Origin: Candidatus Poribacteria bacterium
Lineage (GTDB): Bacteria > Poribacteria > WGA-4E > WGA-3G
Assembly (NCBI GenBank): GCA_009839745.1
Contig: VXPE01000113.1
Span: 1-35,618, forward strand
Length of the DNA: 35,618 nt
Reading direction: 5' to 3'
Part shown: piece by piece, positions 10,086 to 32,879 of the stretch
How the letters are laid out: each line of letters opens with the position of its first letter
Numbering within the stretch: the stretch's first letter is position 1
Made by a program: the position numbers and the translations under genes
The notes under the pieces: generated by a model
The model's input: the letters and a program-made list of their open reading frames with translations, nothing else
Database searches by the model: none
Told to the model about the DNA's origin: nothing

Positions 10086-10229
10086 GTTTAAGTAATACCG
10101 AACCTGAAAGACACATTCGCATTTAAGAGATTTTGAAACTCAGAGGAAGGCAAATCTAAGAGGCGCATTGTCCCGCAAGTCCACACGCGACTTACGCCAT
10201 TGCGCGACTACGAACAGATTTCTCGTTAA

Positions 10230-12578: not shown

Positions 12579-12631
12579 TTGTCAGAAGAATAGTTATAAG
12601 TTAAGAGGCTTTTGTTAAACCCAAGCGCGCA

Positions 12632-12716
12632 GCCCGTAAGCGTAGCGGAGGGCGGATCTACGGAAAGGAACGTTATTTATCCAACCTCTCTGACCGAACC
12701 GCAAGGAATAATTAAA
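12632..12716 (+). promoter_or_regulatory. Recurrent structured 5' leader, copy A
   Basis: A GCCC / GGGC hairpin (12632-12635 with 12650-12653), then CTACGGAAAGG, then CTGACCGAACCGCAAGG and an AATAATTAAAAG tail running into the ATG. AAGGAA at 12703-12708 is the likely ribosome site. Related leaders lie at 17114, 31062 and, on the minus strand, 22530. Confidence 0.5.
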
Positions 12717-12718
12717 AG

Positions 12719-13837
12719 ATGAAGATTGTTGATGTGAAAACGTATCTCGTTGATGTACCGCCACCGCATTGGGGTGGAAGGCGTTGGATTTTCGTCAAAT
12801 TGGTGACAGACGAAGGGATTGAAGGCATAGGTGAATGCACGTATCACACGCAATTGAACCATGTCGTCATCGAACTCATCAAAGACTGGGGAGAACGCTA
12901 CCTGATGGGCGTAGATCCGTTTCGGATTGAAAGGATCTGGTCGACCCTTTATGAGGGACCGTGTGTCCGGCATTCAGGACCGTTGACGAGTCCAGCGATG
13001 AGTGCGATTGAGATGGCGTGTTGGGATATCGTCGGAAAAGCACTGAACCAACCGATTTACAATCTGTTAGGCGGTATGTTCCACGAGAAACTGCGTGCCT
13101 ACTCCTATCTATTGCAATGGCGCCGCGGCGACTCCCCAGAAAAAACGGGGGACCTCGCGCTCGCTTACGTCGAAAAAGGGTTTACGGCTGTCAAGTTCGA
13201 TCCGGTTGATCCAAGCACCGCGGATCGGTTGGAAACTCTCGATTACGCAGAGAGTGTCATCCGAGGAATTCGCGATGCCGTCGGGGATAGGTGTGACATT
13301 CTGATTGGCACGCATGGACAGTTCAATACAAACAGTGCAATCCGTTTCGCGAAACGCGTCGAGCCTTACGATCCACTCTGGTTCGAGGAACCGCTACCCC
13401 CAGAGAATATCAAGGAGATGGCACGCGTCGCCCAATCAACGAGTATCCCGATTGCCACTGGAGAACGATTGTTGACAAAATACGAGTTCGTGGACCTGTT
13501 GGAACAACAGGCGGCATCTATTCTGCAGATGGATTTGACGATCACAGGGGGTATCCTTGAGGCGAAAAAGATCGCATCGATGGGTGAGGCACATTATGCC
13601 CAAATCGCACCGCATCTGTATGGGGGTCCGATCGGGGGTGCTGCGAATATTCAGTTGGATGTCTGTAGCCCGAATTTCCTGATTCAAGAGGGTATCCATA
13701 CATGGGACGGCTTCCACGCGGATATCCTGAAGGAGCCGTTGCAGTGGAAAGATGGATACATCATTCCATCAACGAAACCGGGACTCGGTGTCGAATTGAA
13801 CGATGAAGTTTTGGAGAAACATTCTATTACGGTTTAA
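12719..13837 (+). CDS. Mandelate racemase / muconate lactonizing enzyme family protein (probable sugar-acid dehydratase)
   Basis: A 372-residue enolase-superfamily enzyme that would abstract a proton alpha to a carboxylate, most likely dehydrating an aldonate or related sugar acid. The N-terminal capping domain (1-120) is followed by the barrel domain. It shows FTAVKFDPVDP, ILIGTHGQF (194-202), WFEEPLPPEN with Glu223, ATGERL with Glu249 and APHLYGGP with His299. Glu223, Glu249 and His299 match the usual second and third metal ligands and a general base. The first ligand, normally an Asp two residues before His199, is Gly197. The galactonate-dehydratase-like layout is suggestive, but the substrate cannot be set. 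It has its own structured leader and is flanked by unrelated genes. Confidence 0.85.
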   Translation: MKIVDVKTYLVDVPPPHWGGRRWIFVKLVTDEGIEGIGECTYHTQLNHVVIELIKDWGERYLMGVDPFRIERIWSTLYEGPCVRHSGPLTSPAMSAIEMACWDIVGKALNQPIYNLLGGMFHEKLRAYSYLLQWRRGDSPEKTGDLALAYVEKGFTAVKFDPVDPSTADRLETLDYAESVIRGIRDAVGDRCDILIGTHGQFNTNSAIRFAKRVEPYDPLWFEEPLPPENIKEMARVAQSTSIPIATGERLLTKYEFVDLLEQQAASILQMDLTITGGILEAKKIASMGEAHYAQIAPHLYGGPIGGAANIQLDVCSPNFLIQEGIHTWDGFHADILKEPLQWKDGYIIPSTKPGLGVELNDEVLEKHSITV

Positions 13838-17048: not shown

Positions 17049-17113
17049 GGATACTATGGACAAAACAGTCTAAAAAACTGAGAAACTTCTATCTTCTTAG
17101 CGAAAGATTGTAA

Positions 17114-17197
17114 GCCGTAATGAAATGGAGGCGACTCTACGGAGAAGCATGTTAATGCTCAAACTCATTTTAACGAACCGCAAGGTAAATTAAAAAA
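17114..17197 (+). promoter_or_regulatory. Recurrent structured 5' leader, copy B
   Basis: A GCC / GGC hairpin (17114-17116 with 17130-17132), CTACGGAGAAG, then AACGAACCGCAAGG and a TAAATTAAAAAA tail directly before the ATG at 17198. AAGG at 17182-17185 is the only ribosome-site candidate, as in copy A. Confidence 0.5.
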
Positions 17198-18541
17198 ATG
17201 AAACAGAGACGTTTCCGTGCCGCTATCGCCTCAATCGGGTTGCATCTGCTCTTTGTCATCATTGCAGCGTTGCTGTTTTCAGGACAAAGGGAGCTGAACA
17301 AAGACGCGTTTGAGGCGACATTTTTTACGCTCAATCCTGCAAGGACAGCGGTGGAAATCCGTCCGACCCGGCGGACTGTCTCAGCACACACCCCGCTTTT
17401 AAGTGAAACCTCAACGGAAACCCGCATATCGCCCCAAGCATCGCGTAGAGGCGAGGTAACCTCGCCCCTACAGAGAAACCAAACGGATGTCGTGCAACCC
17501 GTGCCACCGTTGGATGTCGAAACCGATATACTGAATCCGACAGAACTTTCGATAGCACCTACACTGCCGAACAGTCGTCAGTTTAGAGGCGGTCTGGTTA
17601 AACCAGAGTCCTCTTTAGTTGATAACCGACTCCTGAAAACTGATAATTATTCGACACGGCGTAGAGGCACAAACACGTCTAAAACGGGACTCTCAGAATT
17701 TCTGGATGGATCTTTACCCACAGGTGGCTTGGGAGATGGGTTCGATACTGCATTTCGCAATCTTGTGAAGATACCGAAGGAGAAATTGGGGGGTGTCCTT
17801 GAAGGGACCGGCAGCGAGATGCGCGGGCATATTCGGTTGATTCGACTCAAACATTCGCTCTCGGATTGGTGGCAGGATCCGACGGCGATTCCTGCGCTCA
17901 TCAAGTGGCTGGAGGAACAGACCCCGATTCGGGCGGATATGGACTTCGATGGCGGTGCGCTACGGATCACTGATCCTCAAATCATGGACGCTCCGCTCAT
18001 CATCATGACAGGACACGATAAAGACATCACCGTTGGGCGGGGGCTTGCAAAAGAGGGTCCGCTGCAGACAGGTTTCACATCCACAGAACGCGCAGCACTT
18101 CGGAAATACATCGTTGAAAAAGGAGGAATGCTGTTTTTCGATGACTGCGGTTTCAATGGACTTTTCGCACACATCGTCGCTGATGAACTCAAACAAATTT
18201 TCCCTGAATATCCGCTTGAGATTCTTCCGCACGAGCACGAGTTGTATAGTATCTATTACCATCTGTCGAAACCGCCTACAGGTGGCGATGTGTTCTGGGG
18301 AAACGAGAACAACGCGCAACCCACGCAGTTCCGTTATCAGAAAGCAATCGTCATTGATGACCGGTTAGCAGTGGTTTATAACCGCAAGGATTACCTGTGT
18401 GCAATGGAAACCGCAGAGATTGAGAGCCGCACGATGTTACGCCTCCGCCGTTCCACGGATGTTTATCGGTTTATGTCAAATCTACTGATTTATGCCCTGA
18501 AATATGGTGGGAATACGGATAGGACGGGGTATCAGCAGTAA
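17198..18541 (+). CDS. DUF4159 domain protein with one N-terminal membrane anchor
   Basis: 447 residues. A single membrane segment at about 8-30 (AIASIGLHLLFVIIAALLF) resembles a TonB-type anchor. A long disordered linker follows, and the DUF4159 domain lies at about 205-440: RGHIRLIRLKHSLSDWWQDP, the LIIMTGHD strand, LRKYIVEKGGMLFFDDCGFN, and the EILPHEHELYSIYYHL region. DUF4159 has a glutamine amidotransferase-like fold and usually occurs with MoxR/DUF58 gene clusters in envelope functions; none is present here. Part of the linker (about residues 82-91 and 133-158) is encoded by sequence that looks like non-coding repeats. Its leader is copy B of the recurrent element. Confidence 0.8.
   Translation: MKQRRFRAAIASIGLHLLFVIIAALLFSGQRELNKDAFEATFFTLNPARTAVEIRPTRRTVSAHTPLLSETSTETRISPQASRRGEVTSPLQRNQTDVVQPVPPLDVETDILNPTELSIAPTLPNSRQFRGGLVKPESSLVDNRLLKTDNYSTRRRGTNTSKTGLSEFLDGSLPTGGLGDGFDTAFRNLVKIPKEKLGGVLEGTGSEMRGHIRLIRLKHSLSDWWQDPTAIPALIKWLEEQTPIRADMDFDGGALRITDPQIMDAPLIIMTGHDKDITVGRGLAKEGPLQTGFTSTERAALRKYIVEKGGMLFFDDCGFNGLFAHIVADELKQIFPEYPLEILPHEHELYSIYYHLSKPPTGGDVFWGNENNAQPTQFRYQKAIVIDDRLAVVYNRKDYLCAMETAEIESRTMLRLRRSTDVYRFMSNLLIYALKYGGNTDRTGYQQ
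17445..17471. repeat. Palindromic repeat inside the DUF4159 gene
   Basis: GTAG-A-GGCGAGGT-A-ACCTCGCC-C-CTAC is a 27-bp near-perfect palindrome centred on 17458. It is read in frame as SRRGEVTSPL within the disordered linker. It looks like an interspersed REP/MITE-type unit rather than ordinary coding sequence. Confidence 0.6.
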
Positions 18542-20980: not shown

Positions 20981-22444
20981 CTATGGGACAGGACTCACGT
21001 ACTCTCTCTTGAATTCCCCTTGAGAAGGAGATTCAGAGGATTTAAGGCGTTGGAATGCCCGCTGCCGATAGAGGTGTTCAAACAGATTCCCTTCATGTGG
21101 ACTATCCCAAGAGATCTGATTCGTCGGGATCGCCCCTAAATTGAGGCGGTCAACAAGCGGTGTCGCTATGAGATCTTGTACGAGCGAAGTGTCTTCTGTA
21201 ATCGCCGTGGCAACCAGCGTTGCACCCATAGCCTCGACTAACTGCGTCGGTGGCACTTCCACAATACTCACGAATGGGAACGGGAATTCTATGTTCGCTA
21301 ACGGATGTTCCGCATCGTCGCACCAGATAACAGTCGGTCTCAGGAAGGTGCAGCCATCCAATTCCACGACGCGATCTCCCGTTGTCAACTCTGTCGCACC
21401 GGGTTCTTTGAGGTGCTGGTCAATCAGAGATGAAATACCGTGTGCAGACTTCGGATTTGCCCACGCGGCGATTCCCGCCTCTGGGTGGTCCAATGGTTTC
21501 GGTTCGATGCGTGCCAAACGCGCTGCTAACGCTTCGGCAATTTTCCGTCCATTTGCGGTTACCCACACGCCAGAGGCGTTAATGCAGGATCTGCCTCCGT
21601 TTTTAGCAACCGATTCCACGATGAGATCGAGATACTGTTCCCAATTGTTCTGTCCCGCCTCGTGGATGATGATCTTGCTACGTCCCGGACCGTGGATTTC
21701 GACACGCGGTGTGTTCACCCAGGGTGCGACGGTTGCGCCGCCACCAAAGAGCATAGAGCGTCCGCATCGGACGAGGATTTCGTTGGCACCGGTGTAATCG
21801 GTCGGGTAGAAACTGAACGCCTCTGCGGGAGCACCTGCGGCGATAAACGCTTGTGCGATCCGATACGGCGTCCAGGGTTCCTCGCGTCCCGGTTTCAGCA
21901 CGAGAGGGACTTTCAACGGAATCGCAGGCACCCACAACGAATGAACGCCGGGCGAATTGCTCGGTAACACGGCACCCAGCGAATCTGTCTCACAGACGTA
22001 ACTCAAGGTGCGTCCGTTTTGGGTTCCCCATCCTGTGTCAAGGACTTCCAAATCAAGCCCGCGGGTGAGTCCATCTAAAACCGTATCTATGTTCTCCAAA
22101 ACCCCTTGAATCTTGAACAGATTCTGTTCGCAGAGTGCTTCAGGCATACCGGTTGTCCCAGAGACCTGTTGGATGTAGTCTGTCGGTGATTGAACGGTTC
22201 CGTCAAGCGGCAATGTCTCTGTTGCGAAGAGACGCGCTGCTTTCTTGCAGGTGGAGATTAATTCGGCGGCAGAACGTTGCCCAAGCACCTCCTTTTGGAG
22301 GGCGATGTCAAGGAGGTCCTTCGCTATCAATCCACGATTGGCTTGGCTCACCTCGACCAAGGGTTCACCGGTTTTGATATGTGGCACGCGGATGGTGTTC
22401 AGACTTCTGTAGGAACGTCCGGCGCGTAGAATCGGAATATGCAT
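20981..22444 (-). CDS. Aldehyde dehydrogenase superfamily protein, acyl reductase (LuxC)-like
   Basis: 487 residues of the ALDH fold. Catalytic Cys287 lies in KNGGRSCINA, an Asn163 (PSNSPGVHS) sits at the oxyanion-hole position, and Lys184 in LVLKPGREEP and LFGGG at 232-236 belong to the nucleotide-binding domain. Glu262 in HEAGQNN replaces the usual ELGG context. The length and divergent motifs fit the acyl-CoA/acyl-protein reductase branch (LuxC-like) at least as well as an ordinary aldehyde oxidiser. A LuxE/PaaK-like adenylating enzyme is encoded two genes upstream in the same direction, so the pair may reduce a carboxylic acid to an aldehyde. A leader related to copies A-C precedes it. 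Confidence 0.8.
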   Translation of the reverse strand: MHIPILRAGRSYRSLNTIRVPHIKTGEPLVEVSQANRGLIAKDLLDIALQKEVLGQRSAAELISTCKKAARLFATETLPLDGTVQSPTDYIQQVSGTTGMPEALCEQNLFKIQGVLENIDTVLDGLTRGLDLEVLDTGWGTQNGRTLSYVCETDSLGAVLPSNSPGVHSLWVPAIPLKVPLVLKPGREEPWTPYRIAQAFIAAGAPAEAFSFYPTDYTGANEILVRCGRSMLFGGGATVAPWVNTPRVEIHGPGRSKIIIHEAGQNNWEQYLDLIVESVAKNGGRSCINASGVWVTANGRKIAEALAARLARIEPKPLDHPEAGIAAWANPKSAHGISSLIDQHLKEPGATELTTGDRVVELDGCTFLRPTVIWCDDAEHPLANIEFPFPFVSIVEVPPTQLVEAMGATLVATAITEDTSLVQDLIATPLVDRLNLGAIPTNQISWDSPHEGNLFEHLYRQRAFQRLKSSESPSQGEFKREYVSPVP

Positions 22445-22530
22445 TTTTTAATTATTCGCAAGGCGTTAAATCAAGCGATTGGTTCAATAACAACTTTTGG
22501 GGACCTACCGCCTGCGCCGTTGTTGCAGGC
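22445..22530 (-). promoter_or_regulatory. Recurrent 5' leader, divergent copy D
   Basis: On the minus strand, GCCTGC and GCAGGC form a perfect 6-bp stem (22530-22525 with 22515-22510) whose loop AACAACGGC matches GCAACAACGG in copy C. The leader ends with GAATAATTAAAAA before the ATG, like the tail of copy A. The central GACCGAACCGCAAGG part is not conserved here. Confidence 0.35.
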
Positions 22531-22575
22531 TGCCATCATTCTAATAGTTGTTGACTGTTATCAGTTATCAGTCAA

Positions 22576-30964: not shown

Positions 30965-31061
30965 TTATTCCAATGCTAAATTCGCACTTGCACATTACAC
31001 CGAAAACTGGTAGAATGCATCTCACATCGTGTTGTAAGGGCAAATTCGCACGAAATCGTAA

Positions 31062-31168
31062 GCTGCAACAACGGAGCGGGGTTTTTGATAAGGTATTTCT
31101 TCAGATATACGGAAAGGCACTTTCAACACAGAACCCACCTGACCGAACCGCAAGGTAAATTTAAAAAT
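31062..31168 (+). promoter_or_regulatory. Recurrent 5' leader, copy C
   Basis: GCTGCAACAACGGAGCGGGG, a T-run, TACGGAAAGG, then CTGACCGAACCGCAAGG (identical over 17 bases to copy A) and TAAATTTAAAAA. Unlike copies A and B, another 38 nt with a second ribosome site, GGAAAGGAAAG, follow before the ATG at 31206. Confidence 0.5.
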
Positions 31169-31205
31169 CGCTTGCAAGTTACGCGAACCGGGAAAGGAAA
31201 GAACT

Positions 31206-32879
31206 ATGCCGAAAATGACAGGTGCTAAATTTATTGCTGATACCGTCCACGGATATGGAATTACGCACGTTTTTTTTATGCCGTATATCGGACCGCGGAC
31301 TTTAATGGAGATGGAAAGTCTTGGAATTAAGCGGGTTCAGACGCACGGTGAAAAAGCAGCAGCGTATATGGCTGACGCTTACGCCCGTGTGAACCGCGCG
31401 CCAAGCCTCTGCATGGCACAATCGGTCGGTGCAGTGAACCTCGCCGCGGGGTTACAAGATGCCTATCTCGCTTGCTCACCGGTGATTGCGATTACGGGTA
31501 AGGAAAACCAAATCAATCAACAACGGCACGCCTACCAAGAGGTAGACCACGTCAACCCGTTTTCTGCTGTCACGAAATATAGCGCATACGTCGCGACCCC
31601 GGAGCAGTTGCCCTTCTATCTACGGCAAGCCTTCCGTGCGGCAACAACAGGGACCCCCGGACCTGCACACCTCGATTTCGAAGGCATCGCTGGGACCTCG
31701 GTTATTGATCGAGAAGGTGAACTTGAGGTCATCATTGAAGAGGCGTTTACCCAATTACCGCCGTTCCGTCCGGAAGCAGAAGCAGAAAAGGTAACGGACG
31801 CTCTCAGTCTCCTCTCCGATGCGGAACGTCCCATCATTATGGCAGGGGGTGGCGTAACGGCGTCGGACGCACGCTCAGAACTTGTCGCAGTGGCGGAGAA
31901 ACTCTCGATTCCGGTAGCGACTTCGCTGAATGCAAAGGCGATGTTTCCCAGTGACCATCCGTTGGCAGTCGGGACTCCGGGTTCATACTCGCGGGCATGC
32001 GCCAATCAAGCAATGTGTGAGGCAGATCTTGTCTTCTTTATCGGAAGTCATACGGGTGGACAGGTAACCAACGGATATAAGATCCCGCCACAAGGCACAC
32101 CGATTATACAACTCGACATTAACCCAGATGAACTGGGACGGAATTATCCGATCCAGTTAGGGATGCAGGGAGATGTGCGGAACACACTCCGTCGGATGCT
32201 TGACGCGTCAGAAGCTACGGAGCCGCGGACTGAATGGGTCAGCCGCGTCCAAGAATTGGTGCAAAACTGGAAAGACGATGTCAGTGAGAAGGTAAACTCG
32301 GAACGGTTGCCGATGCTACCCGAACGGCTCTGTCGTGAACTGACAGACTATCTTCCGTCAGACGCTATCCTCGTCTCCGACACAGGGCATTCAGGTATCT
32401 GGACTGGCACGATGATTGACTTCAAACATCCCGATCAGAGTTTCATCCGTTGTTCGGGTTCGCTCGGATGGGGACTCCCCGCGGCGATGGGTGCCAAGTG
32501 CGCGCAACCCGATAGACCGGTCATCTGTTTCACAGGCGACGGCGGTATCTGGTATCACATGACGGAACTCGATACGGCAATGAAGTCCGGGATTAATGCT
32601 GTCATTGTTGTGAACAATAACCACTCACTGAACCAAGAACAGGGTGGCGTTGAGTCGGTTTACGGTGGACGGACAACGGGTTCCGATGAACTCTGGTTGT
32701 TCCCAGATGCGGATTTTGCGAAGATGGCAGAATCGATGGGATGTCTTGGAATTACGGTCAATAAACCGAGTGAACTCGCGGGTGCGCTGGATCAGGCACT
32801 TGATTCAGGGAGACCGGTAGTCGTGGATGTGAAAACGCATGTGGAAGGGATTGCGCCCCGGACGTGGATGCCTTCGTAG
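31206..32879 (+). CDS. Thiamine pyrophosphate-dependent enzyme, acetolactate synthase-like
   Basis: 557 residues with the three domains of the acetolactate synthase/benzoylformate decarboxylase family. The N-terminal domain has cofactor-activating Glu49 in THGEKAAAYMADAYAR. The middle domain runs RPIIMAGGGVTASDA to HTGGQVTNGYKIPP. The C-terminal domain holds the ThDP-binding motif from Gly444-Asp445-Gly446 to Asn470-472 (GDGGIWYHMTELDTAMKSG, VVNNN). FAD is not required in all members, and the middle domain alone does not decide this. It could be a 2-oxoacid decarboxylase or carboligase. GGAAAGGAAAG supports the start. A hairpin follows the stop. Confidence 0.85.
   Translation: MPKMTGAKFIADTVHGYGITHVFFMPYIGPRTLMEMESLGIKRVQTHGEKAAAYMADAYARVNRAPSLCMAQSVGAVNLAAGLQDAYLACSPVIAITGKENQINQQRHAYQEVDHVNPFSAVTKYSAYVATPEQLPFYLRQAFRAATTGTPGPAHLDFEGIAGTSVIDREGELEVIIEEAFTQLPPFRPEAEAEKVTDALSLLSDAERPIIMAGGGVTASDARSELVAVAEKLSIPVATSLNAKAMFPSDHPLAVGTPGSYSRACANQAMCEADLVFFIGSHTGGQVTNGYKIPPQGTPIIQLDINPDELGRNYPIQLGMQGDVRNTLRRMLDASEATEPRTEWVSRVQELVQNWKDDVSEKVNSERLPMLPERLCRELTDYLPSDAILVSDTGHSGIWTGTMIDFKHPDQSFIRCSGSLGWGLPAAMGAKCAQPDRPVICFTGDGGIWYHMTELDTAMKSGINAVIVVNNNHSLNQEQGGVESVYGGRTTGSDELWLFPDADFAKMAESMGCLGITVNKPSELAGALDQALDSGRPVVVDVKTHVEGIAPRTWMPS

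Follow-up and report, generated by a model that had tools for sequence, protein, structure and literature searches.

Several families of dispersed repeats described in bacteria come close to the leader reported here. BOX elements of Streptococcus pneumoniae are, like it, dispersed, modular, non-autonomous and slow-moving intergenic repeats, and some of them give start codons to open reading frames (ORFs) running out of the repeat; these ORFs have neither a good Shine-Dalgarno sequence nor host homologues, and that study describes no placement of the repeats at start codons (PMC3049150). Rickettsia palindromic elements (RPE), about 105–146 bp in length, are found in frame within conserved protein genes (PMC2229807). 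REP sequences bear a GTAG at the palindrome foot and number in the hundreds, with Y1 transposases (RAYT or TnpA-REP) encoded in the genome (PMC3733652, PMC8266576). In Beggiatoaceae, more than 100 sets of TAACTGA direct repeats, proposed to act in translation, lie just upstream of the start codons of unrelated genes (PMC4679880).

The window analyzed in this study, a stretch of 35,618 nucleotides (contig C113) from a 5.04 Mb genome of Candidatus Poribacteria, contains members of a dispersed repeat family of about 115 nt. The unit consists, in this order, of about 15 nt, a GTAG-footed hairpin (P1) of about 21 nt, a body of about 45 nt, the sequence CCGCAAGG and an A/T tail of about 12 nt, the latter varying among lineages (AAGGWAWAATTAAAA for the close group and AAGGAAANTTAAAA for others). 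Its edges are sharp, conservation reaching from about 15 nt 5′ of the GTAG to 11–12 nt past the AAGG with unconserved flanks on both sides; tandem units exist as well, 5′ flank included. Several interchangeable body types occur (A, B, D, E and others). In a sample of 1.81 Mb from the own genome (36% of this draft assembly, with ORFs called mechanically), 116 tails belonged to type A, 63 to type D/E and 23 were left unassigned.

Judged from the published descriptions, this unit differs from BOX elements in that it runs up to the start codon of known host genes and carries an AAGG at fixed spacing. RPE are long palindromes inside ORFs, whereas the Poribacteria element occurs chiefly as a 5′ leader, has a short hairpin and forms N-terminal fusions; a long palindrome spanning the whole element was not found, since only a hairpin with a 4-bp stem covaries. 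The consensus GTAG precedes this covarying stem and thus forms a palindrome foot as in the GTAG superfamily of REPs. Unlike in REPs, however, where the palindrome of 20–40 bp is the whole unit, the hairpin always comes with body and tail, the conserved unit of about 115 nt has a single orientation to genes and no linked RAYT was found among seven Y1 loci with flanks of about 1.5 kb. TAACTGA repeats are heptamer tandem repeats without Shine-Dalgarno character and not a unit of this length with hairpin and AAGG. Terminal inverted repeats as in MITEs were not seen by inspection, the consensus ends (TTARNACCAAA... and ...AATTAAAAA) not being complementary, and pairs of filled and empty sites gave no clear target site duplication, with flanks often replaced. 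As described, none of BOX, RPE, REP and TAACTGA joins start-codon placement, an AAGG at fixed spacing and the donation of start codons.

A covariance model built from 34 own-genome copies, including the window copy at 12617 and none of the other three, matches exactly four places in the window. These are the leaders for which a recurring structure had been proposed in the original prediction (12632, 17114, 31062 and a looser one at 22530 on the minus strand); the receptor leader at 165–205, which had been called loosely similar, gave no match to the model. The first type A copy (12617–12721, plus strand; cmsearch 100 bits, E 9.6e-24) ends with the ATG of a gene of the mandelate racemase/enolase superfamily (12719–13837; Pfam MR_MLE). 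In its hairpin (12632–12653, plus), which is preceded by GCAG where the family consensus has GTAG, GCCC at 12632–12635 pairs with GGGC at 12650–12653. The second type A copy (17098–17200, plus; 83 bits, E 2e-19) precedes a gene for a DUF4159 protein (17198–18541). In both, AAGG (12703–12706 and 17182–17185, plus) lies exactly 12 nt before the ATG (12719 and 17198) and is, as had been stated for two copies, the only Shine-Dalgarno-like site. The third type A copy (31046–31170, plus; 64 bits, E 2e-14) is located about 50 nt upstream of the start of a TPP-enzyme gene (31206–32879) that keeps its own ribosome site, a native GGAAAGG. Here another repeat (GGTTTTTGATAAGG...) replaces the 3′ half of the hairpin and the four model pairs are broken, so that the GC/GC read in this copy is not a kept stem; over the 34 copies of the model, the proposed variation of the stem with kept pairing holds for P1. 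The divergent copy (22442–22545, minus; 33.6 bits, E 2.5e-6) precedes the minus-strand gene 20981–22444, whose label as ALDH stems from the original prediction. It shares P1, has a different body, which defines type B, and ends with ...AACGCCTTGCG-AATAATTAAAAA-ATG; sister copies with the identical ending occur elsewhere in the genome.

Searches of the 5.04 Mb genome for CGAACCGCAAGG yielded 269 exact copies (128 + 141) against 1 for the reversed control, and 364 against 42 when up to one mismatch was allowed. The repeat is therefore real, far beyond chance and far more numerous than first stated. The covariance model found matches in each of the 38 species of the genus that were searched, with 1 to at least 46 per genome, and the exact core is present 3 to 269 times per species. 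Of the 85 genomes of the phylum searched, three outside the genus gave one or a few matches at E < 1e-13, another three gave weak matches and the remaining 41 contained none; for core plus tail, the matches listed in named genomes all belong to Candidatus Poribacteria. G035, a genome of another family, gave one very strong match (E 1.1e-21), to be explained by horizontal spread or by misbinning of the contig. Identity between nearest dispersed copies is mostly 75–90% and rarely more than 90%, and no recent burst of identical copies was seen in this comparison, which covered 36% of the genome. In the non-subscription literature searched, no description of this repeat in Poribacteria was found.

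The copies are placed at the starts of genes that are unrelated to each other. In the own-genome sample, an ORF of at least 80 codons starts 5–30 nt after the AAGG in 88 of 157 type A copies, compared with 10 of 157 on the opposite strand. The distance is 10–13 nt in 71 of these 88 copies and exactly 12 nt, the mode of the family, in 52; for about a quarter of the A-type copies, no long ORF follows. The search of related genomes that had been suggested as a check gave the same picture: in held-out genomes, 51 of 84 model matches lie directly before an ORF start (27 of 39 in G004 and G006, 24 of 45 in G008) and only 2 on the opposite strand (0 and 2, respectively), with the start at the exact model position in 37. 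Pattern and match selection were blind to ORFs, the last positions of the model nevertheless containing the frequent ATG. Hits are thus concentrated just before start codons and not placed at random. Of 950 ATG-initiated ORFs with 250 codons or more, 119 have a CGCAAGG-like site within 30 nt before the start. About one gene in eight would thus carry the AAGG site of the element, an approximate figure because ORFs were called mechanically. At a spacing of 12 nt, AAGG is a weak Shine-Dalgarno match; from the sequence we infer that ribosomes use it, as well as the internal starts discussed below.

Orthologous sites are variably filled. At orthologues of the gene at 12719, the leaders of related species are of type A or, in several species, keep the hairpin with a body of another type; two species are without the element and show an AGGAG-type site instead. 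The second window copy is full in four species (the own one, G008, G005 and G003). In G009 and G007 its body is deleted and the GAACCGCAAGG tail with the AAGG is kept; at another locus, L267, a deleted body likewise leaves the AAGG tail. The second copy is absent from G006, G011 and G012, in which only a few nt separate the start of the gene from the upstream stop codon. The third copy is absent from the equivalent place in the approximately 94% identical G008. Within a pair of loci of about 95% identity, L162 is empty, whereas L048 is filled with a type D element inserted between the upstream stop and a native ATTAAAA and keeps the native GGAG site. Other empty sites without similar sequence (ACAGACAG-AAATG; TAA-AAATAAA-ATG) are filled in relatives, and upstream flanks are sometimes replaced too. 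Between G000 and G008, after chance coding matches were taken out, 21 shared copies stood beside 3 gained or lost and 23 beside 4, and about 15% of testable copies differ. This variable occupancy, which includes the third window copy, indicates that the unit spreads. Together with the start-codon placement in held-out genomes, it supports the second of two proposals made at the outset, a mobile leader supplying a ribosome site, which is better supported than the first, a structured RNA; the original interpretation as a whole is thus partly supported.

It is probable that the repeats represent dispersed, non-autonomous mobile leaders of about 115 nt that give host genes their translation start signals. 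An inserted unit would serve its host gene as 5′ leader and would, in the usual case, donate an AAGG some 12 nt ahead of the host ATG. Less often, the element would end within the first host codons, with no host ATG seen and the frame open into the element. Translation could then begin at an in-frame ATG, GTG or TTG inside the element, which would encode the N-terminus of the protein (...HLTEPQGKIK-). A host frame without a canonical start 5–15 nt after the AAGG that is open into the element was found for 51 type A copies from 37 gene families. Such fused copies in frame 1 contain an in-frame ATG, GTG or TTG within the element in 31 of 38 cases, compared with 54 of 148 other copies read in the same frame (p 8e-7). 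With one copy per gene family, the numbers are 22 of 29 and 43 of 111 (p 6e-4); 10 of the 37 fused families have no ATG, GTG or TTG within the element. The commonest internal start lies 35 nt before the end of the AAGG, behind a GGAGAGG-like stretch. ATT as start of these ATG-less genes was dropped as the main reading because most of them have an in-frame ATG, GTG or TTG inside the element.

N-terminal extensions from the element are accordingly predicted for fused families such as RuvC, CoaBC and TrpB. Domain matches start past the extension in RuvC (residue 25), CoaBC (residue 24) and a cysteine desulfurase (residue 17), and in TrpB the match to solved chains begins at residue 22, past an extension of element length. 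The ruvC gene is fused in G000 as well as in G008; the two fusions differ in frame, and both have an in-frame ATG. The unfused CoaBC orthologue of G006 has its own ATG and reads MEFRERTIILGVTGG. Orthologues were located in 29 of 38 genomes for ruvC and in 37 of 38 for trpB. Start donation by the element predicts peptides such as MKSQVHPNEPQGK (TrpB) or MKVPTHLTEPQGK (RuvC). Over the element as a family, codon-position periodicity is absent, though frame 1 is usually open. For this reason coding conservation of the element was rejected, and we read the extensions as tolerated, apparently incidental by-products of overwritten starts. As in RPE, in-frame pieces of the element also occur inside conserved protein genes, namely those for AnmK and NAD kinase. 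In two genomes, a type A piece lies in frame within the anmK coding sequence (HHLP-RLNEPQGK-VPSTLQI; L042:19600-19660 and L130); one of the two, from a related species, has a reversed type D element in addition, which also keeps the frame. The NAD kinase gene at L220:12083-12676 appears to be interrupted midway through its coding sequence by a complete element that is likewise in frame.

The proposal of a structured RNA regulating translation held up only for one short hairpin. P1 covaries, with all five pairs (the 4-bp stem and one inner pair) formed in 34 of 34 copies and 37 double-change cells against 11.6 after shuffling; no covariation was found elsewhere in the element, and several covarying helices, as in structured cis-regulatory RNAs, are thus not present. 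RNAalifold predicted only P1 and an invariant CC-GCAA-GG, the four window copies folded no better than shuffled sequences (z 0.72 to -0.44) and Rfam gave no match at gathering thresholds. A long-range helix P2 (ACGG...CCG, AGG...CCT; in type D GAGGAAC/GTTCCTC) looked convincing by eye and was discarded, since it shows no covariation within types. Regulation by CsrA via GGA motifs was likewise rejected, as no PF02599 match and hence no CsrA gene is present in this 96% complete genome. With covariation confined to the hairpin, the rest conserved as sequence and folds like those of shuffles, a structured regulatory RNA is not supported. A riboswitch or protein-binding leader of a large regulon, whose function keeps the copies and whose turnover is regulon rewiring, would agree with the covariation of P1, the highly conserved body and the strict sense orientation before starts. 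Nevertheless, it is distinctly improbable given the missing further helices, stability, Rfam match and CsrA, the unrelated genes downstream, the swapped or deleted bodies at orthologous genes, the in-frame copies inside anmK and the NAD kinase gene and the fact that P1 is often broken by other repeats in copies persisting at gene starts.

Regarding the spread of the mobile leader, single-strand transposition in trans via P1 by a resident Y1 transposase of the IS200/IS605 or REP type is possible, if short of an even chance; alongside it, ectopic gene conversion between copies would swap bodies. As candidate machinery, the genome encodes Y1 transposases at seven loci and a single reverse transcriptase of group II type. 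None of the seven, with flanks of about 1.5 kb, bears the hairpin of the element and no element ends were found at the reverse transcriptase locus, so that neither enzyme was retained as autonomous partner. Two of the Y1 transposases resemble the REP-associated kind by eye, which, like the GTAG foot and palindrome (PMC3733652), would suit a repeat consisting of the hairpin alone, spread by such a transposase, with the rest being neighbouring sequence. This is very unlikely, because the hairpin is never alone (of 73 P1-type hairpins, 66 have CCGCAAGG no more than 170 nt downstream and 7 have variant bodies), hairpin-less copies exist and the fetched Y1 loci contain no such hairpin.

A retro-type insertion, in which an RNA copy is primed via its tail at an A-rich target, possibly with a group II intron reverse transcriptase acting in trans, appears unlikely as well. 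Tail priming at A-rich DNA would leave a precise 3′ end and often a truncated 5′ end, and the precise 3′ ends at A-runs, the frequent 5′ truncations, the tail-only leaders, the doubled tails with diverged halves, the insertion abutting the native ATTAAAA and the presence of one reverse transcriptase gene are all in line with it. However, this enzyme looks like an ordinary group II maturase unlinked to the element, hairpin-bearing units are mostly full length, a covarying hairpin is easier to account for by hairpin-recognising DNA transposition and truncations can also result from deletion. Equally doubtful is a spread without any transposition, in which similar intergenic regions exchange leaders by ectopic recombination or gene conversion alone. 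Body types swapped at orthologous genes under an unchanged hairpin, nearest copies differing by more than 5% and the occasional replacement of upstream flanks would fit this explanation, but it hardly accounts for the filling of empty sites without similar sequence or for insertions inside coding sequences.

More tentatively, the mobile leaders may act as start cassettes, i.e., as transposing leaders directed to start codons that overwrite the native initiation region (in housekeeping genes such as ruvC, coaBC and trpB also the start codon and the first residues) and leave about one gene in eight of the genus on element-borne signals; we consider this conceivable rather than probable. If the reading as mobile leaders is right, hundreds of genes in a single genus of abundant sponge symbionts would have a mobile repeat as their translation initiation region, the N-termini of essential enzymes would have been reshaped by it and gene callers would be likely to mis-start many genes in these genomes. 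The series of orthologous genes with full leader, deleted body, tail only, no element or fusion would constitute a natural test of what ribosomes need to start.

Some further short sequences were observed in or beside the element. A second short repeat (GGTTTTTGCTTGGGCGTTTCCCC / GGTTTTTGATAGGGTGTTTC..., reverse complement CCCAAGCAAAAACACGCAGG) often takes the place of the 3′ half or loop of P1, as at window positions 31080–31105 and at many other loci, and the P1 loop of copies in L096, L217, L260 and L048 contains a small palindrome (TTATGCCTTAAATGGCATAATTT...), so that small repeats are nested. An additional family, C, has a separate body and follows the same logic: its hairpin has a loop of the same kind (GTAATGTAATGGA type), and CCCAGnAGCCCA and TAAATTAAAAA come between the hairpin and the start codon (for example at L037, L048, L033 and L046 of the own genome). 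In the window, G008, which is 95% identical, lacks a 106-nt segment (10121–10228) that lies upstream of gene 10248 and has no visible relation to the element. Direct repeats of the TAACTGATAACTGA type, resembling those known from positions before starts in Beggiatoaceae, are present at 22552–22570 on the minus strand and occur six times in the 1.81 Mb of the own genome, with none for the reversed control.
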